Shown here piece after piece: positions 28,020 through 61,872 of a stretch of DNA of 64,000 nt. The notes beneath the pieces are model-generated. The model was not told where the DNA came from and did no database searches. It worked only from the letters and a program-made list of their open reading frames with translations. The first letter of the stretch is position 1, and every line of letters begins with the position of its first letter. The translations under genes and the position numbers were made by a program. The stretch comes from Mycobacteroides abscessus ATCC 19977 (GTDB taxonomy: Bacteria; Actinomycetota; Actinomycetes; Mycobacteriales; Mycobacteriaceae), in assembly GCF_000069185.1 (NCBI RefSeq), contig NC_010397.1, forward strand, positions 4,402,001 to 4,466,000. The letters run 5' to 3'.

Positions 28020-28034
28020 ATTACATTGTGTAAT
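28020..28034. promoter_or_regulatory. 15-bp palindrome at the PucR start, probable operator
   Basis: ATTACA-TTG-TGTAAT is a perfect 6-bp inverted repeat with a 3-bp spacer. It overlaps the annotated ATG of the PucR gene (28033) and lies in the divergent region with mmsA. It may be an autoregulatory or activator site. Confidence 0.5.
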
Positions 28035-29640: not shown

Positions 29641-29651
29641 ACTCAGCTGGG

Positions 29652-29674
29652 TTGCACCGCTAACCAGGGTGCGA
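29652..29674. terminator. Hairpin between convergent genes, possible bidirectional terminator
   Basis: TTGCACC and GGTGCGA form a 7-bp stem (one G-U pair) with a 9-nt loop in the 37-bp gap between the PucR stop and the nitrilase stop. No U-tract follows on either strand, so it is a weak candidate. Confidence 0.3.
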
Positions 29675-29677
29675 ATG

Positions 29678-30499: not shown

Positions 30500-31092
30500 G
30501 CGTCACCCGAAATTTCAACAGTGACGGGACGGGGAGATCCGTCTCCGCCGTTCGTGGGATAGTGATCGTCGGGGCAAGCGGAAACAACAATCACCAAATC
30601 AGTCAGCGCCTTGAGCGTCACCGACATCCCCGGCTGCATGGGCGGACGAGCATATTGGATAGCTCCGTCAGTACGCACTTGCGCAGTCATGAACAGATTC
30701 CAAGGTTGAGGCGGATCAGCCGCTGCCCGTTCCGGCAATGCCTCATGGTAGTTCGAAGTACAGCTGCGATGATCGGGATCCAAGCCCAGGAAGCCGTACA
30801 TCGCCCTACTACACGGAGCGATCAAGGTGTCGTGAAGAATCCCGGTGTCGTCGGCCATCACAGTGAGCATCGCGTTGTACCTATTGCTAATGAGGGTATC
30901 TCCGGTCCGGAAGTAGATTCTTTCCAGCACTTCCCGGCATTGGCCCAGGCCCAGATGCTCCGACAGATCTGCGCGCTGGTGCGCCCAGAAATCGACTACT
31001 TGAGTTCCGGCCGGATTCACGATCTTGATCAGACTGCCGGCGTCGACCGTCATCGCCGATCCGTACCCTCCGGGTACCTCTACAACTGTCAT
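30496..31092 (-). CDS. Urea carboxylase-associated/DUF1989 family protein
   Basis: 198 residues. VEVPGGYGSAMTVDAGSLIKIVNPAGTQVVDFWAH at the start, SNRYNAMLTVMADDTGILHDTLIAPCS in the middle and HEALPERAAADPPQPWNLFM with VVSACPDDHYPTNGG near the end match DUF1989. Members accompany urea carboxylase, nitrilase and permease genes; the biochemical role is little known, but conserved Cys and His residues suggest metal binding. Here it sits between permease and amidase, with 4-bp overlaps on both sides, which implies balanced translation of the three. Confidence 0.85.
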   Translation of the reverse strand: MTVVEVPGGYGSAMTVDAGSLIKIVNPAGTQVVDFWAHQRADLSEHLGLGQCREVLERIYFRTGDTLISNRYNAMLTVMADDTGILHDTLIAPCSRAMYGFLGLDPDHRSCTSNYHEALPERAAADPPQPWNLFMTAQVRTDGAIQYARPPMQPGMSVTLKALTDLVIVVSACPDDHYPTNGGDGSPRPVTVEISGDA

Positions 31093-32531
31093 CGGCGGTG
31101 TACTCCCTTCTTTTGAACCAAGCCGTAGATCAAGGCCGCGATCGGAAGCGCGGCCAGCACGGTGCTGATCACCGTCGACTGATCGGTCACCAGCGTGAAG
31201 TTTTTGAGAACCAGGTACACACTGGCGGACAAGCCGATGGTCGCCACGATCGGCGCCACATAGGTGGTCAATACCCGGCCGGCCCGGGCGGAGTCGTCTC
31301 GTGAGAAAAACAACGGCACGGCAACAGAAGTCAGGATCAACAGCATGAGCATGCCCACCGTGGAGATACCCGCCATCGACGAGAATACCTGCACCATAGG
31401 GTCTAGCCCGACAGCCGCCACCAGCACCACAAAGGCCACAGCGGTGATTGATTGCAATGCAGAAGAGATATGCGGAGATCTCTCGGTGGGATGCACCCGC
31501 CCCACGGGAGCGGGCAACACTCCCTTATTGGCCAGCGCGAATTGGTACCGGGCGATCACATTATGGAAGGACAGAACACAGGCAAAAAGACTCGTCACCA
31601 AAAGGATCTGCATGATGTCCCGGAACACGGCCCCGACATATGCCTCCGCGGTATCCAACAGCGCGTTACCGCCTGAATCCAGCGACTTCTGAACGACGTC
31701 CTTGACGTTCGCAGGCCCCCAAGCCTCCACTACCGCCCAACACGAAACGGCATAGAACACACCAATAATCGCCACCGAAAGATACGTCGCGCGGGGGATA
31801 GTGCGCTCCGGCTGGCGTGCCTCGTCGCGAAACACGGCGGTGGCCTCGAATCCCATGAACCCTGCGAATGCAAACAGGATCGCAATGCCCAAGGGACCGG
31901 AGGCCGCGGCCTCCGGAGTGAACGAGTAGGCCGAGATTCCATCGCGTCCGCCCTGGAACACAATCGCGGCATCGGTGACGAGGACAACAGCGATCTCGAG
32001 CACCAGAGCAATGCCGAGAACCTTTGAACTGAGCTCGATATTGCGGTACCCCAGGTATGCCACGAGGCCGAGCGTCACGATTGCCCAAAGCCACCATGGT
32101 AATTCGGGACCACCGTACGAGGTGACGAGATCGTTCAGCGCCCAACCCATGTAGCCATACATACCCACCTGAATGGCCGTGTAGGTCACCAAAGCTACGA
32201 ACGCAGCACCGAGGCCCCAGCGTTCGCCCAGCCCCTTGGTGATGTACGAGAAGAAGGCGCCGGCTTCGGATACGAACGGCGTCATCGTCACGAATCCCAC
32301 AGCGAACGCCATCAATAGCAGGCCCGCGATCAAGAAGCCGAGCGGCGCGCCCGGCCCAGGCCCACTGGCGATGGCCAGCAGCCCATCACCGCCGATGACC
32401 GTCAACGGCGCCGCAGCGGCGATAACCATCAGGACAATGCCTATCACTCCCAGCTGACCGTCCAGCTTCTGTGGCCGGTCGGATTCCGCGGCCGAGCCGT
32501 GGCCCTGGCATGCCCGTTTCGAAGCCGTCAA
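31089..32531 (-). CDS. APC-superfamily amino acid/amine permease
   Basis: 480 residues with about 12 membrane segments; the first helix has MVIAAAAPLTVIGGDG and the third GERWGLGAAFVALVTYTAI. It would import an amino acid or amine at the inner membrane. The start is TTG at 32531, chosen because GAGGAG stands six bases before it and the DNA encodes SKRACQGHGSAAESDRPQKLDGQLG, a soluble N-tail, before the first helix. First gene of the operon with the DUF1989 protein and amidase. Confidence 0.85.
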   Translation of the reverse strand: MTASKRACQGHGSAAESDRPQKLDGQLGVIGIVLMVIAAAAPLTVIGGDGLLAIASGPGPGAPLGFLIAGLLLMAFAVGFVTMTPFVSEAGAFFSYITKGLGERWGLGAAFVALVTYTAIQVGMYGYMGWALNDLVTSYGGPELPWWLWAIVTLGLVAYLGYRNIELSSKVLGIALVLEIAVVLVTDAAIVFQGGRDGISAYSFTPEAAASGPLGIAILFAFAGFMGFEATAVFRDEARQPERTIPRATYLSVAIIGVFYAVSCWAVVEAWGPANVKDVVQKSLDSGGNALLDTAEAYVGAVFRDIMQILLVTSLFACVLSFHNVIARYQFALANKGVLPAPVGRVHPTERSPHISSALQSITAVAFVVLVAAVGLDPMVQVFSSMAGISTVGMLMLLILTSVAVPLFFSRDDSARAGRVLTTYVAPIVATIGLSASVYLVLKNFTLVTDQSTVISTVLAALPIAALIYGLVQKKGVHRR

Positions 32532-32850
32532 CTATCACTCCTCATCATGAATTCCGCCGCCGCCCGGACAGCTGTGTCTCAAGTCATGGTTCGCCCGCCA
32601 GAGTGAGACATCCAGCGACACTGTGTATGAAAGTCAGCCAACGTCTTTACGACACGTAGCAGGCCCCGGGTCTTGATGTGCTCTCTAGGACGACCATCGC
32701 GGATGGGATACGCCCTGCGCACCGCGCGCATTCCCGTGGGTTCCTCTGGGCGGAACGCCTCCTTCGCCGGTTGCCGTCTCGCTACAACAATGACTCGTCG
32801 TGAATGAGACCTGCGCCACAATATGCCCGCCAAGTGCGGCAAGTCATAGA
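32532..32850. other. Intergenic region between permease and lipase-like gene
   Basis: This 319-bp gap separates divergent genes. It holds the GAGGAG ribosome site of the TTG-started permease at its left edge, and a short ACACTGTGT palindrome near 32618-32626. I find no convincing gene, promoter pair or long repeat. The two short open frames that cross it (32579-32842 minus, and the first codons of the plus-strand frame from 32800) lack a ribosome site and any recognisable motif. Confidence 0.5.
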
Positions 32851-34152
32851 ATGGCGTCTCCTGCGATGCGCCTGTGGAGACTGACGGCAGCCCTCGCGAT
32901 CACAATCGTTTCTTTGTGGCAGTTGATGCCTACCGCACGCGCCGACGATCGCCACTATGAAGAGTTCTACACACCTCCAAATCCGCTACCCGCCGGCCAA
33001 GCCGGCGATCTGATCCGCACCGAGCCGCAACGGTTGGTGCTCGAGCCGTCGGGGCAGCTGGGCGCCTACATGGGCACAGGTACCCGAATCATGTACCGCA
33101 GCAACGATGCCCGGGGCAACCCGGTAGCGGTGACCGGGACCTATATCGAGCCGTCCGTGCCGTGGACGGGCCGCGGCCCCAGGCCGCTGCTGGCATACGC
33201 GACGCTTCCGTATGGGATGGGCGAGCAATGCGCTCCATCGCGCCTCTTCGACCAAGGCATCCACTTCTCGCAAGGGATGGACCTCATGTTCAACATCGAG
33301 GAGGGATTTGTCGCAACATTGTTGGCCCGCGGCTTTGCGATAGTGGTGACCGACGGAATCGGCATGGGCGTTCATGGCCCCCAATCACCACAGTTCTTGA
33401 ACCGGGTGGCGGCAGGCACCGCCCTGATCGACGCAGCCCGGGCAGCGATGAAACTGGTTGACACTTCCCTAGACCCGCACGGTCCGGTGGCGTTCTGGGG
33501 ATTTGCATCCGGCGCGCATGCGTCGCTGTCTGCCGCTGAACAGGTGGGAAGCTACGCGCCGGAGCTAAACGTCGTGGGCACCTATGCCTACAGCCCCATG
33601 ACTGATCTGGCGGCCGAGCTTCCCGGTATCGACGGCAGCTTCATGGCCGGGACAACAGGGTACATATTGCGTGGCCTCTTTGCCTCGTATCCCGAGCTGG
33701 AACAACCCATTCGCGAGTCACTGACGCCGCGCGGCTTGCAAATGCTGGATTGGTCCGGACACACCTGCATCATGCAGACAGGGATCGACTACGCCTTCCG
33801 ACATCTACAGTTCTGGTTCAACGACGACATCACCCACTTGGCACAGCTCGAGCCGTTCAAGACCCTGCTTGCCGCGCAACGCGTGGGGAACACCAAACCC
33901 ACGGGACCGGTCTACATCGCGATCAATCGCTTCGATCCCTTGAACGACTACAACGCCGCGCGTCAGTCCGGCCTCGACTACTGCGCAATGAACGCAGATG
34001 TGACGTTCTGGACCAACGAGCAGCCGCCGCTATTCAACAAACTAGCCATCAACACCTTCCTTCCCGTCTTCGTCGACGGCGAAAGGAGCATGGCCTGGGT
34101 AACCGACCGGTTCAACGGCGTTACGACCAGTCCGAATTGTGGTCATTTCTAA
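32851..34152 (+). CDS. Secreted lipase-family (PF03583-like) protein with altered nucleophile elbow
   Basis: 433 residues if started at the ATG at 32851 (MASPAMRLWRL); 32866 is also possible. A signal peptide with cleavage after MPTARA precedes DDRHYEEFYTPPNPLPAGQAGDLIR, the usual opening of secretory LIP lipases. GTGTRIMYRSNDARGNPVAVTGTYIEPS and LLARGFAIVVTDGIGMG also fit. The nucleophile elbow expected as GYSGG is GFASGAH here (codons at 33499-33519), so the serine position holds Ala (about residue 219). I also find no His in the expected C-terminal place. It may be a non-catalytic lipid-binding relative. No close neighbour partner. Confidence 0.7.
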   Translation: MASPAMRLWRLTAALAITIVSLWQLMPTARADDRHYEEFYTPPNPLPAGQAGDLIRTEPQRLVLEPSGQLGAYMGTGTRIMYRSNDARGNPVAVTGTYIEPSVPWTGRGPRPLLAYATLPYGMGEQCAPSRLFDQGIHFSQGMDLMFNIEEGFVATLLARGFAIVVTDGIGMGVHGPQSPQFLNRVAAGTALIDAARAAMKLVDTSLDPHGPVAFWGFASGAHASLSAAEQVGSYAPELNVVGTYAYSPMTDLAAELPGIDGSFMAGTTGYILRGLFASYPELEQPIRESLTPRGLQMLDWSGHTCIMQTGIDYAFRHLQFWFNDDITHLAQLEPFKTLLAAQRVGNTKPTGPVYIAINRFDPLNDYNAARQSGLDYCAMNADVTFWTNEQPPLFNKLAINTFLPVFVDGERSMAWVTDRFNGVTTSPNCGHF

Positions 34153-35631: not shown

Positions 35632-35673
35632 CTCTTGACTGCAAGCCATGAGTCTCTTAATCTCAAATCAAGA
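35632..35673 (+). promoter_or_regulatory. Promoter of the RutE-FAH operon with shared CTCTTGACT element and dyad
   Basis: TTGACT (35635-35640) and TAATCT (35658-35663) are -35 and -10 with 17-bp spacing. The extended element CTCTTGACTGCAAGCCATG recurs near-identically before the second FAH gene. A dyad TCTT-n-AT ... AT-n-AAGA at 35655-35673 overlaps the -10, so a repressor there would block transcription. Confidence 0.65.
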
Positions 35674-35712
35674 AGCCTATCTGCCGACCGGCTCAACAGT
35701 TAAGGACCCTCC

Positions 35713-36339
35713 GTGACCGACTCAAATGGCCATATCGCCGTCGCCTCTCTGCCCGTCCTGGATGAGGCAGGACGCGCAACACTTTTCACGCACGCTCGCA
35801 CCGCCAATAGCTTCGCCGACACCCCCATCGCGCGGGAAAAACTCCTTGAAGCGTGGGAGCTAGCCCGCTGGGCGCCGACCTCGGTCAATACCCAACCACT
35901 TCGAATTCTCTTCGTAGACAAGGGCGAAGCACGTGACCGCTTGATCCCACACATGTTCGATCCCAACAAGGCCAAGACATCTACCGCTCCCGCCGTTGCG
36001 ATACTGGCAACCGACACCCGATTCCACGACCAGATACCCACCGTGTTCCCCCTCATGCCAGAGATGGCCGAGCTTTTCGAAGCGAACAGCGAATTACGTT
36101 CTTCTACTGGGATATTCAATGCAGCGTTGCAATCGGCCTACTTCATCATGGCCATCCGCGCGGTCGGTCTGGCCGCCGGGCCGATGGGCGGGTTCGATGC
36201 GGACGGCGTGGACCGCGAGTTCTTCCCGGACAACGACTGGTCAACTGTTCTGGTGGTGAACATCGGCCACCCCGGCGAGAATCCGTGGTTTGGCCGGCTA
36301 CCGCGGCTCGACCCTGCCGATGTCGTCCGCTGGGCATAG
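35713..36339 (+). CDS. RutE/HadB-type nitroreductase family protein (malonic semialdehyde reductase-like)
   Basis: 208 residues, GTG start at 35713. FTHARTANSFADTPIAREKLLEAWELARWAPTSVNTQPLRILFV and GIFNAALQSAYFIMAIRAVGLAAGPMGGFD are typical of RutE, the FMN enzyme that reduces malonic semialdehyde to 3-hydroxypropionate in pyrimidine breakdown, and of related quinone or nitro reductases. It leads an operon with an FAH hydrolase, 3 bp apart, behind the shared promoter. In this setting it may remove a toxic semialdehyde or reduce a quinone formed during ring cleavage; which one is not shown. Confidence 0.82.
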   Translation: MTDSNGHIAVASLPVLDEAGRATLFTHARTANSFADTPIAREKLLEAWELARWAPTSVNTQPLRILFVDKGEARDRLIPHMFDPNKAKTSTAPAVAILATDTRFHDQIPTVFPLMPEMAELFEANSELRSSTGIFNAALQSAYFIMAIRAVGLAAGPMGGFDADGVDREFFPDNDWSTVLVVNIGHPGENPWFGRLPRLDPADVVRWA

Positions 36340-36342
36340 ACG

Positions 36343-37242
36343 ATGCGTCTTTACACGACAGATCGCGGCATTGCCCGCCAGGGGGCCGACGGCCATTTCT
36401 CGCTACTCGATCTGCCGTTCGATGACATTGGAGCACTGCTGCGATATTCGGACACGGATACCGCAGCACGGGCCCTCGCGTCGCGCGTGGTCGATAGCGA
36501 CCACGTATCGCTAGCGCCGGTAATCCTCCGTCCTGGCAAGATTCTCGCGGTCGGCCTCAACTATCTGAGCCACGCGGAAGAAGCCCTGGAAAAGTTCGCA
36601 TCTATTGGGCGCCGCGATGTTCAGTTGCCCGCAGAGCCGAACATTCAGATTGTCGCCGGCTCGGCGGTTCAGGCTGATGGACGGCCGCTGATGCTGCCCG
36701 TCGCCACCCCACACCATGTCGACTATGAAGGAGAGCTGGCGGTAGTCATCGGGCGAGCGGGCTTCGCCATACGCACCGACCAGGCGTGGGGCCACGTCGC
36801 GGGGCTAAGCATCATCAACGACGTCAGTGCCCGCGACATTCAGCAGCGGGCCTACACAGGCGACCCCGCGGCCTCGATCGGCATCGCGAAAAGTTTCGAT
36901 ACATTCAAGCCGCTGGGGCCGTGTTTGGTCACGGCAGACGAATTCACCGAAAAGGTCGACCTCCGACTGCAGACACGGGTCAACGGCGATCTACGCCAAG
37001 ATGACCGTACGGGCAATCTCATTCACTCGATACCCGAACTCATCGCGTACATTTCGCGATACCACACGCTGGAGCCTGGTGACGTGATCGCTACCGGCAG
37101 TCCGAGGGGCGCCGGTCAGTTCACCGACCGCTATCTGCGACCCGGCGATGTTGTCGAAATTTCGATTGAACACCTTGGCACCCTTACTAATTCGGTACAG
37201 GCTCGCCAATCGACAGGAACCGGCCAATCGCCCTTGCGGTAG
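36343..37242 (+). CDS. Fumarylacetoacetate hydrolase family protein, copy 1
   Basis: 299 residues, with an N-terminal MRLYTTDRGIARQG leader and then the FAH core: ILAVGLNYLSHAEE, VDYEGELAVVIGR (metal-binding Glu), INDVSARDIQ, AKSFDTFKPLGPCLVT, GDLRQDDRTGNLIHSIPELIAYISRYHTLEPGDVIATGSPRG. Family members use Mg or Mn to hydrolyse or decarboxylate acylpyruvates and meta-cleavage products. Closely related to the FAH gene at 43695, including its promoter. The last 56 bp overlap the 3' end of the convergent IOR gene. Confidence 0.88.
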   Translation: MRLYTTDRGIARQGADGHFSLLDLPFDDIGALLRYSDTDTAARALASRVVDSDHVSLAPVILRPGKILAVGLNYLSHAEEALEKFASIGRRDVQLPAEPNIQIVAGSAVQADGRPLMLPVATPHHVDYEGELAVVIGRAGFAIRTDQAWGHVAGLSIINDVSARDIQQRAYTGDPAASIGIAKSFDTFKPLGPCLVTADEFTEKVDLRLQTRVNGDLRQDDRTGNLIHSIPELIAYISRYHTLEPGDVIATGSPRGAGQFTDRYLRPGDVVEISIEHLGTLTNSVQARQSTGTGQSPLR

Positions 37243-40200
37243 CTGCCCGGTAGCGGTCCACACTCGCGAGCTTGATCGATTCGTACCCGCGCACCATATC
37301 CGGCAGATCGGCAATCTCCACCGCTGCCGAAAGATTGGCGTTGCTCAACTCACTCAACACAGTGTCGATGGTTTCCTTGTACTCGACAACCAGTCGGCGT
37401 TCGCATCGGCGCACCTTCGCCAACCCGAACAAGTCCGCCCTCGTCCCACGTAATCTTCTTGCCGCTACCAGAATTCGATAGACTGGGCGAAACCAAGGCC
37501 CGAGCACAAGCTTGCGCTTGAGCCCCAACGCCCGCAGCACCGGTGGATGAAGCCGGTACGCAATGCGCGCACCCTCGCCGAATTCCGCAGTCACCGCGGC
37601 CACAACCGCCGGGCTAAGCGATAGTCGCGCAACCTCGTATTCATCCTTGTATGCCATCAGCTTGTACAACTGACGAGCCACCGTAGCCGACAGAGCTTCC
37701 GATCCAGCGCACCGTTCCCGTTCCATGTGCACCACATCCGCGACATACCGGACATATTCCCTGGCGTAGCCCAGGCTCTGGTAGTCGACCAGATCCGGGA
37801 CACGGATCCGCAACAAGCGCTCCAGTTCACCGCCGGGCAGCGCTCCCACTTGCTGAACCAGCTTTTCCACCGCCGCAGATCTTCTGGTGCTCGAAGGGGC
37901 TGGGGGTTCGGTTATCCTCCTGAAGGTTTCCGGTTCTGCTACCGCCAGCCTTCCATAACGAAAGGCCGCAATGTTTGACTGCACGCCGGCTCCGTTCAGC
38001 GCGATGGCTTTCTCGATCGCCGCCGGCGACAGGGGCAGCGAACCAAGTTGCACTGCCGCCCCTGCCAATAGCAAGTTGGCGTATTGGTCGCTACCCAGCA
38101 GCTGTACAGACACCGCCCGGGCGTCGATAAAAACTGTGTCGCGCACGGCCTCTCGCAGAAGCGCTTTCAGTGGGCCGGGTTCAGGAAAGGAAACGCCCGG
38201 GTCGATCACCATCTGGCCGGTCGGTACCTCACTCGTCGATATCACCGCCGTCGTGCGGGAGCTGTCGGCGGCATTCAAATACTTCTCGTCGGCTGCCACC
38301 AATAGATCGCAGCCCAGGTACAGATCACACTCGGCGCTTGCCGCCTTGCTCGGTTCAGCTATTTCCGCCTTGCTCATCTTGATGTCCGAAACCACTGCAC
38401 CGCCTTTCTGAGCCAAGCCGGTTTGATCAAGCGTTCGTACCTGCCAGCCAGACGAGGTCGCCGCCACACTGAGTACCTGCGCCAGAGTCACCACACCAGT
38501 ACCGCCCACTCCCGCAATACGTGTGGTGTGTGCGTGTGCTGCAGCCAGAAGCTGGGGAGGATCAGGAAGGTCAGCCAACGAATCGTCCGGAATATGTTTG
38601 AGTCGTTTCGCATTGGGGTCGGGGATCACGGTGATGAAGGAGGGGCAGTCTCCTTCCAGACAGGAAAGGTCTTTGTTGCAGGACGACTGATCAATCCTCG
38701 TCTTACGGCCGAACTCCGTGGATACGGGTTGCACGGACAAGCAATTGGACTTCTGGCCGCAATCGCCACAACCTTCACAAACTCGCTCATTGATAAGGAC
38801 CCGCTCCGCGGGCTCCGATACCAGCCCCCGCTTACGTTTTCTGCGTAGCTCAGTGGCACATTCCTGATCGTGGATTAACAGAGTCACTCCGACGGTGTCG
38901 GCCAGAACCCGCTGCGCCTCAATCAATCGACTGCGGTCCCATACCATAACGCCCTTGGGCAACTTGGCTTTCCGATAGGCTTTAGCATTGTCGGTGGTGA
39001 TGATGATTCGCGAGACTCCCTCTGCCAGCATCGCCATACATATCTGGCCCACCGACATGGCGCCGACCGCCTGCTGGCCACCGGTCATCGCCACCGCGGA
39101 GTTGTAAAGCAACTTGTAGGTGATGTGCGCGCCGGCAGCGATAGCGGCTCGGATGGCCAAACTGCCCGAATGATGAAATGTTCCGTCACCCAGATTCTGA
39201 ATCAGATGATCTCGCCTGAGAAACGGCGCCATGCCGATCCATTGCGTGCCCTCCCCACCCATCTGGGTCATGCCGGCAACCTCGCCAACCTGACGCTCGT
39301 CCATCATCGTCACCAGGGCATGACATCCAATCCCCGCGCCGACCATCGACCCTTCGGGGATCTTTGTGGAGGTGTTGTGAGGGCATCCCGAACAGAAGTA
39401 CGGGGTGCGTGTCAACAGCGGCAAGCTGACAGGTCCCCGCCGTCCGCGCTGAATCCGCGGCTCGGATGCCGGTAGGGCTCCGAACCGCTCAAGCACAGGC
39501 CTGAGTTGATCTGCGATGGCTTCCGTGTCGAGTTCTCCGTCGGCAGGAAACATATTGTTCCCGTCTGGGTTTCGCTTTCCATAGATCATGGGAGCTCCCG
39601 CCGTCCCATACAGCACGTCTTTGAGCCCTAGTTCGATCAATGGACGCTTCTCCTCGACCACGATGATGTAGTCAAGGTTCTCAGCGAACTGGGCGATGAC
39701 ACCGGGCTCCAGCGGATGAATCATTCCCAAACGCAAGACTCGTACCCCGTTGTCCACGCCGAGTGTCCGTAAAGCCTGCACGAGGTCCAGATATGTCTTG
39801 CCCGCCGCGACGATGCCGACCCTATCTCCCGGCGCCTGCTTGGTGATCTGGTTCAACCCGTTCAGCGCCGCGTACTTGCGGGCGATCTCCAGACGGATCC
39901 CGTCACGGCTGCGCTCCAGTGCACCGAGCGTAGGTTGCAGCATGTGAGCCGTCACCGTGTGCCGATAGTCTTCGCCATCGATTTTCGTCTCGGGGAACGC
40001 AGGCCTGACGCGATCCGGATTCAATTCGACGGTGCCCGATCCGTCGGCCACGTTGGTGACGACTTTCATCGCGACCCACAGCCCGCTACACCGGGACATG
40101 GCAATACCATGGCGGCCAAAGTCCAAGGCCTGCTGCGGATCTGAAGGATACAGGATCGGCAGGCCGAGGTCCGCCAACAACAATTCAGAAGCGCCCGGGA

Positions 40201-40684
40201 CGCTCGAGGACTTTGCCGCAGGATCGTCACCGACCAACGCAAGCACGCCGCCCTGTGGATGAGTACCCATCAGGTTTGCATGCCGGATGGCATCTGCCGC
40301 TCGGTCCAGTCCCGGCGACTTCCCGTACCAGATCGCCGCCACTCCGTCTACCCGCCTGTCCGGCTGGGTCACCGCCATCTGGGTCCCCTGCACCGCGGTG
40401 GCTGCCAACTCTTCATTGACCCCCGGCACAAAAACGATCTCGTGCTCGTCCAGCAGAGCCGAATTGCGAATCAACTCGGTGTCGTAACCGGCCAACGGCG
40501 ACCCCTCGTAGCCGGATATGAATCCGGCTGTCGACCGCCCGTCTCGGCGATCATCGCGCCGTTGATCCAAAACCAACCGAACCAAAGCCTGAATACCGCT
40601 GAGGTGAACCGTACCCCGAACAGCGGTGTATCGCTCCGACGGTGTGACGAGAGGCTGGCGCACGAAATTCCTTCCTACGGCCAT
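37187..40684 (-). CDS. Fused indolepyruvate/2-oxoacid:ferredoxin oxidoreductase (IorA-IorB in one chain)
   Basis: 1165 residues combining all modules: SGYEGSPLAGYD near the N-terminus, SGCPHNTSTKIPEG, TQMGGEGTQWIGM and LGDGTFHHSGSLAIRAAIAAG for thiamine diphosphate and Mg. An iron-sulfur segment ERVCEGCGDCGQKSNCLSVQP with CLEGDCPSF follows, and a gamma domain IAGVGGTGVVTLAQVLSVAA. The reaction is oxidative decarboxylation of an aryl or other 2-oxoacid to an acyl-CoA with reduction of ferredoxin. Its ATG abuts the FAD hydroxylase stop (40685), so it is the third gene of the ring-cleavage operon. Such enzymes are better known in amino acid catabolism. Confidence 0.9.
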   Translation of the reverse strand: MAVGRNFVRQPLVTPSERYTAVRGTVHLSGIQALVRLVLDQRRDDRRDGRSTAGFISGYEGSPLAGYDTELIRNSALLDEHEIVFVPGVNEELAATAVQGTQMAVTQPDRRVDGVAAIWYGKSPGLDRAADAIRHANLMGTHPQGGVLALVGDDPAAKSSSVPGASELLLADLGLPILYPSDPQQALDFGRHGIAMSRCSGLWVAMKVVTNVADGSGTVELNPDRVRPAFPETKIDGEDYRHTVTAHMLQPTLGALERSRDGIRLEIARKYAALNGLNQITKQAPGDRVGIVAAGKTYLDLVQALRTLGVDNGVRVLRLGMIHPLEPGVIAQFAENLDYIIVVEEKRPLIELGLKDVLYGTAGAPMIYGKRNPDGNNMFPADGELDTEAIADQLRPVLERFGALPASEPRIQRGRRGPVSLPLLTRTPYFCSGCPHNTSTKIPEGSMVGAGIGCHALVTMMDERQVGEVAGMTQMGGEGTQWIGMAPFLRRDHLIQNLGDGTFHHSGSLAIRAAIAAGAHITYKLLYNSAVAMTGGQQAVGAMSVGQICMAMLAEGVSRIIITTDNAKAYRKAKLPKGVMVWDRSRLIEAQRVLADTVGVTLLIHDQECATELRRKRKRGLVSEPAERVLINERVCEGCGDCGQKSNCLSVQPVSTEFGRKTRIDQSSCNKDLSCLEGDCPSFITVIPDPNAKRLKHIPDDSLADLPDPPQLLAAAHAHTTRIAGVGGTGVVTLAQVLSVAATSSGWQVRTLDQTGLAQKGGAVVSDIKMSKAEIAEPSKAASAECDLYLGCDLLVAADEKYLNAADSSRTTAVISTSEVPTGQMVIDPGVSFPEPGPLKALLREAVRDTVFIDARAVSVQLLGSDQYANLLLAGAAVQLGSLPLSPAAIEKAIALNGAGVQSNIAAFRYGRLAVAEPETFRRITEPPAPSSTRRSAAVEKLVQQVGALPGGELERLLRIRVPDLVDYQSLGYAREYVRYVADVVHMERERCAGSEALSATVARQLYKLMAYKDEYEVARLSLSPAVVAAVTAEFGEGARIAYRLHPPVLRALGLKRKLVLGPWFRPVYRILVAARRLRGTRADLFGLAKVRRCERRLVVEYKETIDTVLSELSNANLSAAVEIADLPDMVRGYESIKLASVDRYRAATARAIGRFLSIGEPVPN

Positions 40685-42340
40685 TTACGTTGCAATTTCG
40701 GACAGTGGTTTACCGCAAAGTGTTTCGACAGCAAGGCTGATCTCCTCGACGGGGTCAACGGCCAGACCGGTGCCGATCCACGCGATATGACCGTCCGGGC
40801 GCACCAGCACCGCGCCGTTGCCTTCCGCACCAGGAATCGCACCGCCAATCGGCTCCAAGTCGCGGCCAACAAGATAGACCTGCAACGGAATCCGCATTTC
40901 GCGGATCTTCGGCGCGTCGATCCATTCCGCGCCCTCTGGTCCTGCGATCAGGACGAATCCGACCCCGACAAGGTCCAATGTCGAGATTCGCCGATCACCG
41001 AGGTTCACCCAGTGATGGGGCATTCGGCCACCCATGACAGCCGTGGTGATCGGATCGACGGCATCATTATGTCCACCATAAACGTACCCAAGCTCCAGCT
41101 CCAGATAGTCGAAGTGCGGGCGTTGTTCCGGCACAGCCGCCGCCATCCGGCTACGTTCGGCAGCGGCAACTGCCGGGATATCACTTTCCAGCTTCGCCGC
41201 AACCGCCATGGTGTTCGGGCCAATTCCGGCATCGGCCATCTTCATCACATTGGCGATGCTGCTTTCAGCGTTGGCCAGTGCGACCGGCCGCCGCTCGGAT
41301 TCATATGTATCCAACAACTGTGTGTGTGCCCATCCTTGTAGAACGGCGGCAAGCTTCCAGCCCAAGTTGTCGGCATCGACCAGACCCGTGTTCATTCCCA
41401 GACCACCCGTTGGCGGAAACTGATGCGCCGCATCGCCTACCAGGAATACACGTCCCTTGCGGTACTGACGTGCCGTGCTCGCGCCCAACACCCATGTTCC
41501 GACCGAGCGCATATCGATTTCCAGCTCGGGAGCGCCTACCGCCAGCCTGATCAATTCGCGACAACGTTCCGGTGTGTAGTCACTGACAGCTTCGCGCGCT
41601 GGGTCGAATCCCGTATGAAATGTCCACCGGTTACCGCCCAAACGGATGAATACTCCAGGGCACCCGGTGTTGAGGACCCAGAACAATAGTTCAGACTCCT
41701 GGTCGGTCCATTCGGACAGATCGGCGTGGAAATACATATTGATCTGATGCCCGAATTCGGGAATACCCTCCACGTCGATACCGATACTCTGGCGCAGCCG
41801 CGCGGCCGCTCCCTCAGCGTCAACAACGTATTCGGCTCTCAGCGTCTCCGCGTGCCCATCCTTTTCCAGATACACGTCGACGTGGTCTTCGTGGGCACCC
41901 ACGGCCGAAACCTTGGTCCGGTAACGCACTTCGGTCATACCTGAGCTGCGAACCGCCTCCAGAAGCCGCCCCTGTACACGGTCCTGTGCACACGAACCGA
42001 TGGTGACCGGAGATGCGTTCAGACGCCGCGCCAGGTGTGCTTCCGGTACGTCGGCTAGATCGAGCCGTCCGAATTCCTCACCCGCGACGGTGTGCTTCCA
42101 CAGCACATTGATCCCGCGATTGAAGTCGATCGCGTCCGCGATGATCTCGTCGTAGATTCCCCAGTTACGCAGCAGTTCCATCGATCTGGTGTTCACGACA
42201 TGGGCGCGTGGATGCGGATTTACGCCGTCGTATTGATCACACACGATGCTGCGCACACCTAGCCGGCCCAAAACATAGGCGGTGGCCAGCCCAGTGGGCC
42301 CTGCACCGACGATGACCACGGGCGTGATGACGGTGCTCAT
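40685..42340 (-). CDS. FAD-dependent aromatic hydroxylase (MhpA/PheA type)
   Basis: 551 residues from the ATG at 42340, chosen because it overlaps the dioxygenase stop as ATGA. TPVVIVGAGPTGLATAYVLGRLGVRSIVCDQ is the FAD GxGxxG loop, RAHVVNTRSMELLRNWGI follows, and GRVFLVGDAAHQFPPTGGLGMNTGLVDADNLGWKL is the second FAD motif. These are group A flavoprotein monooxygenases that ortho-hydroxylate phenols. The C-terminal thioredoxin-like domain of the PheA type is partly present (LVGRDLEPIGGAIPGAEGNGAVLVRPDGHIAWIG). It would make a catechol for the extradiol enzyme encoded just upstream. Confidence 0.88.
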   Translation of the reverse strand: MSTVITPVVIVGAGPTGLATAYVLGRLGVRSIVCDQYDGVNPHPRAHVVNTRSMELLRNWGIYDEIIADAIDFNRGINVLWKHTVAGEEFGRLDLADVPEAHLARRLNASPVTIGSCAQDRVQGRLLEAVRSSGMTEVRYRTKVSAVGAHEDHVDVYLEKDGHAETLRAEYVVDAEGAAARLRQSIGIDVEGIPEFGHQINMYFHADLSEWTDQESELLFWVLNTGCPGVFIRLGGNRWTFHTGFDPAREAVSDYTPERCRELIRLAVGAPELEIDMRSVGTWVLGASTARQYRKGRVFLVGDAAHQFPPTGGLGMNTGLVDADNLGWKLAAVLQGWAHTQLLDTYESERRPVALANAESSIANVMKMADAGIGPNTMAVAAKLESDIPAVAAAERSRMAAAVPEQRPHFDYLELELGYVYGGHNDAVDPITTAVMGGRMPHHWVNLGDRRISTLDLVGVGFVLIAGPEGAEWIDAPKIREMRIPLQVYLVGRDLEPIGGAIPGAEGNGAVLVRPDGHIAWIGTGLAVDPVEEISLAVETLCGKPLSEIAT

Positions 42341-42855
42341 GCTGACGGCCACCTCACCAGCTCGGCAAAAGATTCGCCCGCATCGAAGCGCTCAATCAGA
42401 GCCTCGGGCTCAAAAGTGATGCCAACAGGGTTGGCCGCGAAGGCTTCTGACGTGATGAAGTCCTGGGTCTCTTCGTTGGTCATGCTGTCGATCTGGAGCT
42501 CAATCTGATTGCCGTCCGGATCCCGGTAGTACATCGACAGCGTGGGACCGTGATTGACACACCAAAAAGGCAGTAGTCCTTGGTCTTTGAGACGAAGGTA
42601 GTTGTCCAGCAGCCCTCGCAGCGAGCTGTATGTGAATGCGACGTGATGCAAACCGGTATGCCGGTCCTCCGGTGGCTCCGAGGCGCCGGTCGCAAGGAAG
42701 GCCAGTCGATGGTGCTCTTCGTCGTACGTGATGAACGCGATCATGGGATTGGCGAAAGCGACCTTGCCGTCAAGGAGCTGGAGGTACCAATCGGTCATCT
42801 CTTGTACACGACCGGTGCGGAGCACCACGTGGGCAAGTTTCTCTGGTGAGGGCAT
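42337..42855 (-). CDS. One-domain type I extradiol ring-cleavage dioxygenase
   Basis: 172 residues from the ATG at 42855, preceded by AGGAG. It has a single VOC pair instead of the usual two, like the small one-domain BphC-type enzymes of rhodococci. Predicted metal ligands are His in KLAHVVLR, His in HTGLHHVAFTYS and Glu in DGNQIELQID. Extradiol enzymes open a catechol ring next to the hydroxyls. First gene of the operon with the hydroxylase and IOR, with the CTCTTGACT element 82 bp upstream. Confidence 0.85.
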   Translation of the reverse strand: MPSPEKLAHVVLRTGRVQEMTDWYLQLLDGKVAFANPMIAFITYDEEHHRLAFLATGASEPPEDRHTGLHHVAFTYSSLRGLLDNYLRLKDQGLLPFWCVNHGPTLSMYYRDPDGNQIELQIDSMTNEETQDFITSEAFAANPVGITFEPEALIERFDAGESFAELVRWPSA

Positions 42856-42920
42856 CGGAAAGCTCCTGGCTGTAGCGGGGCATACACACCCCTCTTGAAT
42901 GTGATACAAGACACGGTAAT

Positions 42921-42945
42921 CATTCTCATGAATGGAAGTCAAGAG
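42921..42945 (-). promoter_or_regulatory. Promoter element of the extradiol-hydroxylase-IOR operon
   Basis: On the minus strand CTCTTGACT (complement of 42937-42945) is followed by a perfect palindrome CATTC-ATGA-GAATG (42921-42934), immediately downstream of the -35-like TTGACT. About 17 of 22 positions agree with the element at 35632. A -10 box is not clear. Confidence 0.5.
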
Positions 42946-43020: not shown

Positions 43021-43596
43021 TTAGGAGCCGCGCTTCGTGACAGCTACGGCAACAAGCGCATCCACCACGAGACCGATAAGCTCACCGGCCGATCGATCTA
43101 GTCGACGACTGCTGATCAGTATCCCCTCGAAGAGCACATGTGCCGCGTCGGCGACAAGCTCAGAATTCACGCCGCCGCGGTTTCGCTGGGCGATCGCGGC
43201 CAGCAACCGCTCGTCAAGCCAGGACTGTACGTGTTCGTACGCGGCGCGAACCGCCTCCGAGCCCTCCATCCGCTCATAGGCTTCGCGATGCAAATTGCGA
43301 TACGACTGGGATTCGGAAAGCAGTGCCACCAGTTCGCCGTATGGCTCGCCATTGATCGACGGGTCTGCCTCGACCCGCTCCCGCACGGAATCGAAGATGG
43401 ACGTGACGGCCGCCGCGAATAGGTCATCCTTGGTCGGGTAGTACCAGTGCACCGCCGCAGGGGCCACACCCGCGGCGCGCCCCACCGCCGCCACGCTGGT
43501 TCCCCTATAGCCGTTGGCCGCAAAGAGTTCCACAGCCTGCTCAAGGATCGCAGACTCCCGCTCAGCCCGCGGTATCTGCTGACGGTTCCTTGGCAT
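43021..43596 (-). CDS. TetR-family transcriptional regulator
   Basis: 191 residues from the ATG at 43596 (MPRNRQQIPRAER); the upstream 15 codons have no support. ILEQAVELFAANGYRGTSVAAVGRAAGVAPAAVHWYYPTKDDLFAAAV is the TetR helix-turn-helix. It lies upstream of, and on the same strand as, the extradiol operon and divergent from the second FAH operon; the 98-bp gap holds the shared CTCTTGACT element and a dyad. It is the prime candidate for the regulator of that element. Confidence 0.88.
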   Translation of the reverse strand: MPRNRQQIPRAERESAILEQAVELFAANGYRGTSVAAVGRAAGVAPAAVHWYYPTKDDLFAAAVTSIFDSVRERVEADPSINGEPYGELVALLSESQSYRNLHREAYERMEGSEAVRAAYEHVQSWLDERLLAAIAQRNRGGVNSELVADAAHVLFEGILISSRRLDRSAGELIGLVVDALVAVAVTKRGS

Positions 43597-43623: not shown

Positions 43624-43668
43624 CTCTTGACTGCCAGCCAAGCGTTGCTCTTAACTAAAAGACAAGAG
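43624..43668 (+). promoter_or_regulatory. Promoter of the FAH-ligase operon with shared CTCTTGACT element and dyad
   Basis: CTCTTGACT at 43624-43632 continues as GCCAGCCAAGCGT; over 22 bases it differs from the 35632 element at three positions. TTGACT is a -35 candidate, with TTAACT (43651-43656) downstream. The dyad CTCTTnnCT-n3-AGnnAAGAG (43648-43668) overlaps it, as at the other site. Confidence 0.6.
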
Positions 43669-43694: not shown

Positions 43695-44561
43695 ATGCGC
43701 CTGTATACAACTGATCGAGGGATCGGCCGCGAAGATCGCCATGGCATCCTCGCGCTGCTCGATCTTCCCCACCGTGACCTGGGCGAACTGCTATCGGACA
43801 CCGGCTTGGATCCAGCCCGCGACGCGACCGTCACCGACGAGGTCGCACTGACGGACGTTGCGGTACTGGCGCCGGTGATCCGCCCGGGAAAGATCCTCAT
43901 CATCGGCCTGAATTACCCAAGTCATGCGAAGGAAGCGCTTGCGGCCTTCGCAGCCATGGGACGCGATGACATCGTCATGCCGACAGAACCCAATATGCAA
44001 CTGATCGCGGGGTCGGCCACCACGGGTACCGATCACACCATCAAACTGCCTGCGATCGCTCCCGACGAGGTGGACTATGAGGGTGAACTGGCCGTTGTGA
44101 TCGGCCGCAGCACCCATGCCGTCTCGGTGGAAGAGGCATGGAAGCACGTGGCCGGACTGACAATCGCCAACGACGTCGGAGCGCGCGATATTCAACGTCG
44201 CGCAATGACGGGTGATGCCGCCGCGTCGATCGGGGTGGCCAAGAGCTTCGACACGTTCAAGCCCCTCGGACCATGCTTGGTCACGGCGGACGAGTTCTCC
44301 GACGGGGTAGACCTCACACTCCAGACGTATGTGAATGGTGAACTACGACAAGATGATCGGACGGGTAGCTTCATATACCCCATCCCGGAGTTGATCGCAC
44401 ATCTGTCGCGGTATCAGACCCTGCAACCCGGCGACGTGATCTGCACCGGCACGCCATGCGGCGCCGGCGCATTCACTGGCCGCTTTCTGCGGTCCGGCGA
44501 TACCGTCGAGGTCGCAATCGAACGTATCGGGCTACTGCGCAACAGGGTATCTGCCGCATGA
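43695..44561 (+). CDS. Fumarylacetoacetate hydrolase family protein, copy 2
   Basis: 288 residues. The whole FAH core is present: ILIIGLNYPSHAKE, VDYEGELAVVIGR, ANDVGARDIQ, AKSFDTFKPLGPCLVTADEF, ELRQDDRTGSFIYPIPELIAHLSRYQTLQPGDVICTGTP. It is strongly similar to the copy at 36343 from the first residues onward, with the divergence concentrated in the N-terminal third. Its ATG follows GAGGAG. It ends in an ATGA overlap with the acyl-CoA ligase gene. It may act on the ring-cleavage product, with the other copy acting on a related intermediate. Confidence 0.88.
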   Translation: MRLYTTDRGIGREDRHGILALLDLPHRDLGELLSDTGLDPARDATVTDEVALTDVAVLAPVIRPGKILIIGLNYPSHAKEALAAFAAMGRDDIVMPTEPNMQLIAGSATTGTDHTIKLPAIAPDEVDYEGELAVVIGRSTHAVSVEEAWKHVAGLTIANDVGARDIQRRAMTGDAAASIGVAKSFDTFKPLGPCLVTADEFSDGVDLTLQTYVNGELRQDDRTGSFIYPIPELIAHLSRYQTLQPGDVICTGTPCGAGAFTGRFLRSGDTVEVAIERIGLLRNRVSAA

Positions 44562-46414
44562 GCACCAGGGCGGCGGCGCTGTCGGAACTCGACCTGCCCG
44601 CCACGATCTATGACTTGCTCGCCCGCTCGGCGGCACAGCACGCGAACAAGCCCGCTCTACGGCTGCTCAAGGGCGGCCGTGAGTGGCTATCACCCACCAC
44701 CTGGACATACAACGAGCTGTTGGGACGAGTCACCCAGGCGGCCAACATGTATCACGCTCTGGGGCTCGGCGGAGGTGGAGTGGTGGGCCTCTTGCTGCCA
44801 AACACTCCGGCGAGCTATCCGGCTCTACTCGGCGCGCAAGCCGTCGGTATCGCCAATCCCGTCAACCCTATGCTGACAACCGCGCACATCATCGACATTC
44901 TCGGACTTACCGGCGCCCAGATCCTCATTGCACCTGCGCCCGCGCTTGATCCCGACGGCTGGCAGAAGGCCCGCGATGTCCTGGACGCGTTACCCGAAAT
45001 CGCCACACTCATCACGGTTGGCGGCGATGTCCCGCACCCGCCTGACCGCTGGGCCGGCGACTTCGATGATTTGTTATCAACCCATATCACAACACATTTA
45101 GATGCCAAGACGCAGAGAACCAGCTCCGACATCGCAGCCTACTTCCATACTGGCGGCACTACCGGAACACCGAAGGTGGCACCGCATACCCATGCGAATG
45201 AGATCTACGTCGCGTGGGCGCTGAGCCAACACAACGCCTTTGGCGGTGATCTGGCCGTACTGTCTGGCTTGCCCCTGTTCCATGTCAACGCGGTGCTGGT
45301 CTCCACCCTTACCCCGCTGCTCGCGGGCGGAACAACGGTGGCACTAGGGCCACTTGGTTTTCGTGACCGGGACGCGGTGGCCGATTTCTGGAGAATTATC
45401 GAGCACTATCGCATCACCACCTTTTCTACCGTGCCCACCGTGTATGCCTCCCTGCCCCCACTGCCCGAGGATGTCGATATCTCAAGCCTGCGAGCCGGAA
45501 TCGTGGGGGCAGCCACACTACCCACCGCGGTTCGAACGAACTTCGAACGCGTAACCGGGGTGCCGATGATCGAGGGATATGGCCTCACCGAAGGCACCTG
45601 CGCCAGCACCTTCATGCCCCTGGGCGACACCCGATATGGCAGCGTCGGACCACCACTGCCGTACCAGCGCGTCAAGGCGCTGAGGCTGGACACAGAAGGT
45701 CGTCCCACGGGCGATTGCGCCGCCGGAGAAACAGGGATGCTCGCCATATCGGGCCCCGCCGTCTTTCCGGGCTATCTAAGGCCTGGACCCGATGGCCCGG
45801 CACCGGATCCAGCTGGTGTGATCCAGGACGGCTGGCTCCTGACCGGAGATCTCGGCAGGTTGGATACGGACGGGTTCGTGTATATGACAGGACGGGCCAA
45901 GGACCTGATCATCCGCGGAGGCCACAACATCGACCCGCGACCGATTGAGGAGGCGATGCTGTCTCATTCTGATGTTGTTGCTGCGGCAGCAGTTCCGCGG
46001 CCCGACGTACATTCCGGTGAGGTGCCCGTCGTCTATCTTGTGCTGCGCGAGGGCGCTAATCCGCCCGAAACCGAGCTTCAGCAGTGGGCGGCCGACCATT
46101 GCGCGGAGCCAGCTTCTATACCCAAGTTCTTCCATGTCGTGGATTCCATACCTGTCACCGCCGTGGGTAAGGTGCACAAAGTTCCGCTGATACACGATTC
46201 CGTTCGCCGGGCCGTGCTACACCAATTAGGTACGGCAGGACTCACCGCTGAGGTCAGCGTGAGTGACACAGATGGCCGTCCTGTTGCCCAAATTCATCTG
46301 ACGAACGGTGCGGGGAGCGAAGGACGACACGAAGCGCAAAAGCTCTTGTCACGCTTCGGTATCAGCTTTCATATCAGCGAATCGGATCGAACTGACGTAT
46401 CTGCGGCAAGGTAG
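44558..46414 (+). CDS. AMP-forming acyl/aryl-CoA ligase
   Basis: 618 residues from the ATG at 44558, overlapping the FAH stop. YFHTGGTTGTPKVAPHTH (P-loop), IEGYGLTEGTCASTF, LTGDLGRLDTDGFVYMTGRAKDLIIRGGHNI and SIPVTAVGKVHKVPL (catalytic Lys) define an adenylate-forming ligase. A C-terminal extension of about 80 residues after the Lys loop is not part of the core. It activates a carboxylic acid, possibly the aromatic substrate or its side-chain acid. Its 3' end overlaps the convergent XRE gene by 41 bp. Confidence 0.85.
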   Translation: MSTRAAALSELDLPATIYDLLARSAAQHANKPALRLLKGGREWLSPTTWTYNELLGRVTQAANMYHALGLGGGGVVGLLLPNTPASYPALLGAQAVGIANPVNPMLTTAHIIDILGLTGAQILIAPAPALDPDGWQKARDVLDALPEIATLITVGGDVPHPPDRWAGDFDDLLSTHITTHLDAKTQRTSSDIAAYFHTGGTTGTPKVAPHTHANEIYVAWALSQHNAFGGDLAVLSGLPLFHVNAVLVSTLTPLLAGGTTVALGPLGFRDRDAVADFWRIIEHYRITTFSTVPTVYASLPPLPEDVDISSLRAGIVGAATLPTAVRTNFERVTGVPMIEGYGLTEGTCASTFMPLGDTRYGSVGPPLPYQRVKALRLDTEGRPTGDCAAGETGMLAISGPAVFPGYLRPGPDGPAPDPAGVIQDGWLLTGDLGRLDTDGFVYMTGRAKDLIIRGGHNIDPRPIEEAMLSHSDVVAAAAVPRPDVHSGEVPVVYLVLREGANPPETELQQWAADHCAEPASIPKFFHVVDSIPVTAVGKVHKVPLIHDSVRRAVLHQLGTAGLTAEVSVSDTDGRPVAQIHLTNGAGSEGRHEAQKLLSRFGISFHISESDRTDVSAAR

Positions 46415-46979: not shown

Positions 46980-47026
46980 GTCACTTTTAATGTACTAGCC
47001 GTCACTCTTGACTGACGATCAACCGC
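46980..47026. promoter_or_regulatory. Regulatory region between XRE-cupin and IclR genes
   Basis: CTCTTGACT (47005-47013) matches the first part of the shared element and puts TTGACT 17 bp before CAGGAT (47031-47036), a possible promoter of the IclR gene. Two GTCACT direct repeats (46980-46985, 47001-47006) stand 21 bp apart, about two helical turns. Confidence 0.45.
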
Positions 47027-47895: not shown

Positions 47896-48220
47896 CCCAC
47901 TGCGGCTCACACACAAGAATCTTGACGGTGGCGCCCGGCAGGTCCACCTCGACAACCATCCGGAACCCCGCGCGCTCAGCCACTTCGATGGAATCGACAT
48001 CGTCTGTATCGGGGGCGAACACAACACGACGGCAGGCGGGATCACCCTCAAATATCGATGAAGCCGCATCACATAGGCCCTCAACGGTGGCGGCGTCGGC
48101 ATCGATGACTATCTGTACATCATGGCTACCCACTGGATATGCGTTGCGTAGCTGACCCGTAAGGCAAAGTTGCCGCCGAAATCCGGGACCGATCCGGGGT
48201 GGCTCCGACTCCGAGGCCAT
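47855..48220 (-). CDS. Small protein of unknown function, GNAT-like tail
   Basis: 121 residues. The ATG at 48220 overlaps the stop of the dihydrodiol dehydrogenase (TGATG), so it is the last gene of the dioxygenase operon. HDVQIVIDADAATVEGLCDAA opens a beta-alpha unit; VVFAPDTDDVDSIEVAERAGFRMVVEVDLPGATVKILVCE looks like the last strands of a GNAT acetyltransferase without the acetyl-CoA loop. It could be a degenerate or half-size acetyltransferase. I do not assign a function. Confidence 0.55.
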   Translation of the reverse strand: MASESEPPRIGPGFRRQLCLTGQLRNAYPVGSHDVQIVIDADAATVEGLCDAASSIFEGDPACRRVVFAPDTDDVDSIEVAERAGFRMVVEVDLPGATVKILVCEPQWVTDGYVDLNSVPC

Positions 48221-49922: not shown

Positions 49923-49936
49923 GTGGTCCGCCTCGA

Positions 49937-53413: not shown

Positions 53414-53454
53414 GGTGCCAGAAAACCCGTAGCGCCGACCTCACGCCAGTGCCC

Positions 53455-53471
53455 GTTCCTCTGGCAGGAAC
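53455..53471. promoter_or_regulatory. Perfect 17-bp palindrome between the two divergent aromatic operons
   Basis: GTTCCT-CTGGC-AGGAAC is a perfect 6-bp inverted repeat with a 5-bp spacer, 42 bp from each of the two start codons (53413 minus, 53513 plus). This is the expected place for an operator controlling both halves of the pathway, possibly bound by the nearby IclR regulator. Confidence 0.6.
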
Positions 53472-53512
53472 ACCAGCTGGGTAAAAGACTCCCGGACAGG
53501 CACATTGGGCAC

Positions 53513-54490: not shown

Positions 54491-54503
54491 CGAGGTTATG
54501 CTC

Positions 54504-61748: not shown

Positions 61749-61872
61749 CGTCTCGCTTCACCACCTAAAACGCCGGACCGTGTGTACGGATGAACGGAGC
61801 GAGTCCAACACGACCTTAATGACCTGTCCAAGTCGGCGCTCAAGCTTCCGCCGCACCACCCTCGAATCGTTC

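Follow-up and report, generated by a model that had tools for sequence, protein, structure and literature searches.

The 64,000-nucleotide stretch of Mycobacteroides abscessus ATCC 19977 analyzed here (contig NC_010397.1, positions 4,402,001 to 4,466,000; in the following called the window and numbered from its first letter) carries eight neighboring genes that apparently form one catabolic regulon. Among them, a fused 2-oxoacid:ferredoxin oxidoreductase of the indolepyruvate ferredoxin oxidoreductase family (IOR) is encoded directly behind a one-domain extradiol dioxygenase of the VOC family and a flavin adenine dinucleotide (FAD)-dependent aromatic hydroxylase. We consider it probable that the substrate of this IOR is a 2-oxoacid arising from ring fission, the oxidative decarboxylation of which would yield an acyl-coenzyme A (acyl-CoA), CO2 and reduced ferredoxin.

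Gene organization and protein families

The genes of the module are, in the order of their coordinates:
35713..36339, plus strand: rutE, RutE-type flavin reductase (malonic semialdehyde reductase family; NF003768, 254 bits, cut-off 152)
36343..37242, plus strand: fah1, second FAH-superfamily protein, FAH1 (PF01557, 206 bits)
37187..40684, minus strand: fused IOR, 1165 amino acids (NF009589, 'indolepyruvate ferredoxin oxidoreductase family', 1433 bits, cut-off 816; DUF6537 and POR domains)
40685..42340, minus strand: FAD aromatic hydroxylase, 551 amino acids from the ATG (stop 40685-40687; PF01494, 280 bits, and Rng_hyd_C)
42337..42855, minus strand: one-domain VOC extradiol dioxygenase, 172 amino acids (ATG at 42855, stop 42337-42339; PF00903, 50 bits)
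43021..43596, minus strand: tetR, TetR-type regulator (PF00440; start ATG)
43695..44561, plus strand: fah2, FAH-superfamily hydrolase/isomerase, FAH2, 288 amino acids (PF01557, 212 bits)
44456..46414, plus strand: acs, acyl-CoA synthetase (ligase; PRK07529, 664 bits, cut-off 632; open reading frame from its first ATG, the true start probably lying downstream)

The genes of the dioxygenase, the hydroxylase and the IOR overlap or abut just as an earlier note on this DNA had described. A 4-bp ATGA at 42340-42337 joins the VOC stop to the hydroxylase start (an alternative in-frame GTG start is present at 42352), and the hydroxylase stop, TAA, is immediately followed by the IOR ATG at 40684, with the junction at 40684/40685. 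Because the RTGA overlap between dioxygenase and hydroxylase is kept in 11 of the 11 loci compared (see below), this coupling is more than chance. FAH1 and the IOR overlap tail-to-tail by 56 bp.

The IOR belongs over its full length to the fused family PRK13030 and is the single match to a fused IOR in the genome of the window. It contains cysteine motifs at residues 431, 636 and 669 and the motif GDGTFHHSG at residue 499. The GDG and every cysteine of the CxxC, CxxCGxC...C and C...C...C motifs are conserved in 110 of 110 aligned IORs (the window's counted), and we take them to bind thiamine diphosphate and iron-sulfur clusters, respectively. No relatives in the PDB were found at an E-value of 0.001. 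Regarding the VOC protein, residues H9, H48, H49, H71, H102 and E119 are invariant and Y109 nearly so among 40 sequences; the roles of a 2-His-1-Glu metal site (H9, H71, E119) and of acid-base His and Tyr residues are assumed here by analogy with BphC and XylE. The predicted model has the VOC fold (pLDDT 91.4). As judged from its sequence, the protein is a one-domain type I extradiol dioxygenase, with the expected metal-ligand and acid-base residues present. The hydroxylase displays the features of a class A flavin aromatic hydroxylase, with an N-terminal GAGPTG (GxGxxG) and GDAAHQFPPTGG (GD motif), and its sequence relatives in the PDB include the 8fhj monooxygenase, 2-hydroxybiphenyl 3-monooxygenase and RdmE; the names of these solved relatives refer to substituted phenols or polyketides. 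Cofactor motifs and metal residues of all three predicted enzymes are intact. Among the PDB relatives of FAH2 are HpaG/HpcE, acylpyruvase FAHD1 and a diketo-acid hydrolase.

From these assignments, the hydroxylase would add a second hydroxyl group next to an existing phenolic hydroxyl, and the one-domain VOC enzyme would then cleave the ring in extradiol fashion. The fission product would be converted to a 2-oxoacid by a FAH-family protein, either by tautomerization or isomerization or by C-C hydrolysis, and the fused IOR, with CoA and ferredoxin, would turn this acid into acyl-CoA and CO2 by oxidative decarboxylation. RutE and the ligase would process the remainder of the molecule. Each of these reactions, as well as their order, is predicted from sequence.

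Recurrence and predicted operator

The VOC protein was searched in genomes of the same genus at an E-value of 1e-15 (matches in 84 of 396) and in genomes of the family at 1e-45 (matches in 11 of 301, the window's own being counted in both cases). Surroundings were compared for 20 of the 22 best same-genus VOC places besides the window's (second places in genomes G304 and G223 omitted), for 10 of the 11 matching genomes at the family level (G302 omitted), with the VOC of Saccharopolyspora elongata added, and for 80 named IOR loci that ranked best among 594 candidates. Eleven loci qualified as modules, with a VOC gene next to a hydroxylase scoring 500 bits or more: the window, L054, L151, L152, L153, L154, L155, L198, L199, L200 and L204. 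At the VOC places outside these 11 (L156-L170, L201-L203, L205-L208), the best hydroxylase scored below 500 bits or was absent.

The three-gene neighborhood is not restricted to this strain; it recurs in other genomes of the genus, in two further genera of the family, in Streptomyces and, rearranged, in Embleya. An IOR was found within the fetched stretch of 7 of the 11 module loci. It lies on the same strand directly behind the hydroxylase in five (the window, L054, L153, L198 and L199), which represent five genomes of four genera, on the opposite strand in L151 and upstream in L154. The window, L054 (found via its IOR) and L204 (its genome chosen because it bears an IOR) did not come from the VOC search alone; in a recount that excluded them, an IOR was present in five of eight loci and directly behind the hydroxylase in three of eight. 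The order VOC-hydroxylase-IOR is retained in L198, L153 and L054, the last from Streptomyces atratus. L199 repeats the layout of the window (FAH1 plus; IOR, hydroxylase, VOC and TetR minus; FAH2 and acyl-CoA synthetase plus) at 64-70% identity, with its rutE on another contig (L252) and an operator in front of it. L204, from Saccharopolyspora elongata, has the module complete except for the IOR, which is located elsewhere in the genome (L067). As to the other members, FAH is absent only from L200 (10 of 11), a related TetR is present in all 11 (38-70% identity in the ten besides the window), a relative of the acyl-CoA synthetase (at least 640 bits) in five (the window, L153, L198, L199, L204) and a linked RutE in two (the window and L204).

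A 21-bp palindrome, written CTCTTRACTNNNNNNYAAGAG, was derived by comparing the tetR/fah2 intergenic regions of six loci with one another. With up to three mismatches on both strands it has 14 matches in the window versus 1.23 expected, a number reached by none of 100 shuffles. The main matches, given without strand, are paired:
35632-35652 and 35654-35674: operator pair before rutE-fah1
42892-42912 and 42925-42945: operator pair before VOC-hydroxylase-IOR
43624-43644 and 43648-43668: operator pair in the divergent tetR/fah2 promoter (43648 copy without mismatch)

The sites before rutE and VOC were absent from the derivation and therefore confirm the motif independently. An inverted-repeat tool returned no pairs in the three promoters, because the palindromes are imperfect. 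Further matches in the window are one at 13288 and a single weak site at 47005; the latter (47005-47025, two mismatches) lies between XRE/cupin and IclR regulators and may tie both to the regulon.

In the whole genome of the window, all five matches with at most one mismatch fall within the module; with at most two mismatches there are 13 (ten in the six module sites, the one at 47005 and two elsewhere), while the reversed control pattern gives 7. A search of 11 genomes, that of the window among them, found 39 matches with at most one mismatch versus 4 for the control, of which 35 lie in module loci, one before rutE on the separate contig L252 and three elsewhere. The off-module matches in L259 and L260 share identical 21 letters and are tRNA-like as judged by eye; a match outside the module in L253 is without explanation. 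Genome G160 has no match at one mismatch, and its module stretch, L152, has one site at two. With up to two mismatches, 99 IOR-centered stretches (1.89 Mb; L054 left out, L091 from Embleya included) contain no site, versus 30 in ten module stretches (0.19 Mb; window left out). Operator pairs precede the VOC gene in L199, L198, L204 and L054 as well, with one or two sites in L153, and sites precede rutE also in L204 and L252. In L151 the IOR is distant from any strong site, so control of the IOR is not identical everywhere.

Because the paired palindrome is common to the rutE-fah1, VOC-hydroxylase-IOR and tetR/fah2 promoters, the eight genes (rutE-fah1, tetR, VOC-hydroxylase-IOR and fah2-acs) apparently form one regulon with one repressor. 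The TetR protein (43021-43596) would be this repressor, binding the predicted operators and autoregulated, and the inducer is presumably the substrate or an intermediate. The earlier note associated the IOR with hydroxylation and cleavage of the ring and with RutE, the two FAH proteins and the ligase; this is borne out, since the window genes share the operator and most recur together in other genera.

A chance neighborhood, with an IOR that takes part in general 2-oxoacid metabolism and lies downstream by coincidence, appears extremely unlikely. IORs are indeed common elsewhere, with matches in 26 of 100 relatives and in 173 of 376 alphaproteobacterial genomes (E-value 1e-100), but chance would have to account for the same-operon position in five genomes of four genera, the shared operator and the rarity of this VOC near IORs. 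Among 100 IOR-gene stretches (up to about 10 kb per side, many shorter), two contained a convincing VOC of this family (235 and 312 bits), a third hit scoring only 25 bits; in genome G009 (L033, one of the 100) the VOC gene lies about 14 kb from the IOR, beyond the fetched stretch.

A second, more distant type of cluster (L202, L207 and L091 of Embleya) combines VOC, hydroxylase, IOR and FAH without the operator, L091 and L207 having no match and L202 one match with three mismatches. The operator-less stretch L207:2559-15343 encodes an aldehyde dehydrogenase, a ligase, an IOR, a FAD hydroxylase, a SnoaL-like protein, a VOC protein, a FAH protein, a regulator and an amidohydrolase. In genome G285 (L164, IOR 1537 bits; not among the 11) the VOC gene has YceI and Mce genes as neighbors and is separated from the IOR by about 4 kb, and in G009, G286, G217 and G907 an IOR lies within about 15 kb of the VOC gene, with distant hydroxylases only. 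A YceI-like gene is clustered with VOC genes at L164:9224-10467, L200:9461-12289 and L202:7017-10536.

The reaction of the IOR

Several observations weigh against decarboxylation of a ring-fission product by the IOR. IORs of anaerobes are oxygen-sensitive; EdcC, an IOR-family protein, serves an aerobic pathway. The regulon contains neither a ferredoxin gene nor genes of beta-oxidation. The module is rare and patchy: of 387 genomes of the order, a strict VOC search gave matches in 2, one of them the window's. A phylum-wide search with the hydroxylase found the window only (1 of 396) but carries little weight, with only 3 of 11-41 candidates scored per listed genome. In a tree of IORs (excluding L198 and L199, fetched later), the IORs linked to a VOC gene fall into more than one clade; deeper branches are weakly supported. 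The six-member clade of the window's IOR (support 1.0) includes L085 and L052, in whose genomes no VOC match was found at an E-value of 1e-20; in L052 a distant FAD hydroxylase lies beside the IOR. Moreover, 4 of the 11 modules (L152, L155, L200 and L204) have no IOR in the fetched stretch, with FAH absent only from L200, so the hydroxylase-dioxygenase pair can work without a linked IOR.

These four modules also bear on the view that the IOR acts before ring hydroxylation and makes an arylacetyl-CoA from a 2-oxoacid derived from an aromatic amino acid. This activity gives the IOR family its name, and a figure legend in a paper on R. ruber groups iorAB with amino acids (PMC6498646), but the pair occurs without a linked IOR, the ring genes precede the IOR in the operon, no aminotransferase is present among the regulon genes and nothing specific was found in favor of this route, which we hold to be very unlikely.

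Regarding the timing of the IOR step after ring fission, the constancy of FAH speaks for FAH before the IOR. In the first version given by the earlier note, FAH would hydrolyze the fission product and the IOR would take the released 2-oxoacid. The FAH relatives acylpyruvase FAHD1 and diketo-acid hydrolase agree with this; for released pyruvate, however, a dedicated IOR would add little beyond the pyruvate dehydrogenase of the cell, and we regard this version as rather unlikely. A narrower form of the preferred reading, in which the IOR acts on the intact fission product (whose C1-C2 form the 2-oxoacid) with no prior C-C hydrolysis and the FAH proteins act later or as tautomerases, may be called possible rather than probable. 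It has a precedent in the edc cluster of estrogen degradation, the description of which, in the text available, names neither a FAH nor a MhpC-type hydrolase. The HsaD-like hydrolase encoded in a neighboring pathway of the window (see below) has no relative at an E-value of 1e-8 in L054, L153, L198 and L199 (L199 being cut by contig ends). On the other hand, FAH is steadier than the IOR in the module (10 versus 7 of 11), as would be expected if FAH acted first, and the edc cluster, as far as described, provides for its acyl-CoA product with acyl-CoA dehydrogenase and MaoC genes, of which the regulon has none.

Decarboxylation of a fission-derived 2-oxoacid, the preferred reading, can be connected with what fills the third position of the operon in other modules. 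In L155 an acetoacetate--CoA ligase (738 bits, cut-off 521) occupies the slot of the IOR, ATGA-coupled behind the hydroxylase, and no IOR match was found in that genome. L154 has an acetoacetate--CoA ligase (698 bits) plus an IOR, L204 has an unassigned alpha/beta hydrolase beside rutE, and L152 and L200 have neither enzyme in the third slot. The ligase in the IOR slot of L155 hints at a 3-oxoacyl-CoA product. Such a product would be common to the acetoacetate ligase and to an IOR acting on a 2,4-dioxoacid, and this shared product class, together with the FAH relatives acylpyruvase and diketo-acid hydrolase, points weakly to a ring of the resorcinol type. A full route of this kind is doubtful at present: in an aerobic actinobacterial pathway, the resorcinol-type ring would give a 2,4-dioxoacid (or a vinylogue) as fission product, from which the IOR would form 3-oxoacyl-CoA and reduced ferredoxin in one step, while the acetoacetate--CoA ligase of sister modules would reach the same class from a 3-oxoacid released by FAH, IOR and ligase thus being exchangeable parts.

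Neighboring genes and known systems

Next to the module, 48220-58219 holds a separate, complete-looking pathway of the 3-phenylpropionate type (hca/mhp-like; several matches below curated cut-offs), with parts of a Hca-like Rieske dioxygenase, a dihydrodiol dehydrogenase, a HsaD-like hydrolase, a MhpB-type extradiol dioxygenase, a hydratase, an acylating acetaldehyde dehydrogenase and an aldolase; no operator match was found in it. It is followed at 58235-63380 by an acetoacetate--CoA ligase, another acyl-CoA ligase and sub-cut-off similarity to RipC and RipB of itaconate degradation. On the other side, 28033-32531 looks like a unit for uptake and breakdown of a nitrogen compound (PucR-type regulator divergent from a carbon-nitrogen hydrolase, a DUF1989 protein and a permease), and 32800-34152 encodes a secretory lipase (LIP family), a relative of which (453 bits) is also found near the module in L154. 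The GC content is 60-61% over 24-56 kb versus 62-65% in the first 24 kb of the window, and this lower value suggests that 24000-56000 is an acquired stretch.

Literature joining an IOR with an extradiol dioxygenase or meta-cleavage is sparse: estrogen degradation is the subject in PMC7793797, PMC12507874 and PMC8281962, whereas PMC6498646 places the IOR under amino acids, all as seen in the available parts of these papers. In the estrogen 4,5-seco pathway, EdcC acts on the meta-cleavage product (PMC7793797, PMC12507874). In N. tardaugens, growth on estradiol is poor when edcC is mutated, and a compound builds up whose mass agrees with pyridinestrone acid, a pyridine by-product of the unprocessed meta-cleavage product; when edcC is combined with edcAB, a mass consistent with the decarboxylated acid appears (PMC7793797). 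The suggestion of an undescribed degradation route therefore has to be given up in so far as an IOR step after meta-cleavage is already on record for proteobacterial estrogen degradation. According to a review, EdcC homologues are lacking in estrogen-degrading Actinomycetota (PMC12507874).

As described in these sources, the edc/oec systems (Novosphingobium/Caenibius tardaugens, Sphingomonas sp. KC8) comprise the putative flavin monooxygenase OecB or the P450 EdcA, the glyoxalase-like dioxygenase OecC/EdcB, and EdcC. The likeness to the module, drawn by description and not from the EdcC sequence, consists in hydroxylation beside a phenol, meta-cleavage of the glyoxalase type and an IOR-family step in the same chemical order, as well as a putative TetR regulator gene. 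In contrast, the edc cluster has acyl-CoA dehydrogenase, MaoC, thiolase and hydratase genes and a TonB receptor, and its available description names no FAH, RutE or AMP-ligase. No clustered acyl-CoA dehydrogenase, MaoC hydratases or thiolase were found in the eight-gene regulon or in the annotated part of the remaining open reading frames at 28.0-58.2 kb, so the module would work like an edc cluster without being one. Of the 173 alphaproteobacterial genomes with an IOR match, 30 loci were examined with flanks of about 1.5 kb; they contained no VOC of this family, and thus no edc-like cluster was available for comparison. Estrogen, considered as a substrate because of the edc system, is not indicated, since the regulon lacks genes for beta-oxidation, a P450 or steroid conversion.

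None of the classical meta-pathway genes (fission-product hydrolase or semialdehyde dehydrogenase, hydratase, aldolase) bears the operator, unless FAH is the hydrolase. The 2-hydroxybiphenyl (hbp) pathway contributes one of the hydroxylase's closest relatives of solved structure, 2-hydroxybiphenyl 3-monooxygenase, but an alpha/beta hydrolase acts in it after cleavage; no such hydrolase was found in the regulon. The A-ring steps of the fde (naringenin, Herbaspirillum) and ifc (isoflavone, Variovorax) systems resemble the module in the FAD monooxygenase FdeE and the glyoxalase-type dioxygenase FdeC (PMC11069340, PMC8552027, as far as available). The ifc paper differs in naming an alpha/beta hydrolase, and 'ferredoxin' is absent from its main text. 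These flavonoid routes and the orcinol/thymol routes were set aside as candidates; a pair of FAH proteins and an acetoacetate ligase would suit their chemistry, but no link to an IOR was found in the accessible literature. The aph alkylphenol pathway of Rhodococcus is likewise an actinobacterial meta-cleavage route, leading to pyruvate and acyl-CoA; it differs by a two-component hydroxylase and a semialdehyde dehydrogenase, with 'ferredoxin' absent from the main text (PMC6710988).

No description of a VOC-hydroxylase-IOR module was found in the open-licence literature. As far as searched there, decarboxylation by an IOR after ring fission is known, and in the papers found, as far as their text was available, it is shown only for proteobacterial estrogen degradation; the host phylum, the accessory enzymes, the regulon and the ligase swap are apparently new. 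If the preferred reading is true, the principle of the edc system extends to Actinomycetota, with two FAH proteins, RutE, a ligase and a repressor of its own, the operator motif marks the regulon, and the natural exchange of IOR and acetoacetate--CoA ligase predicts the product class.

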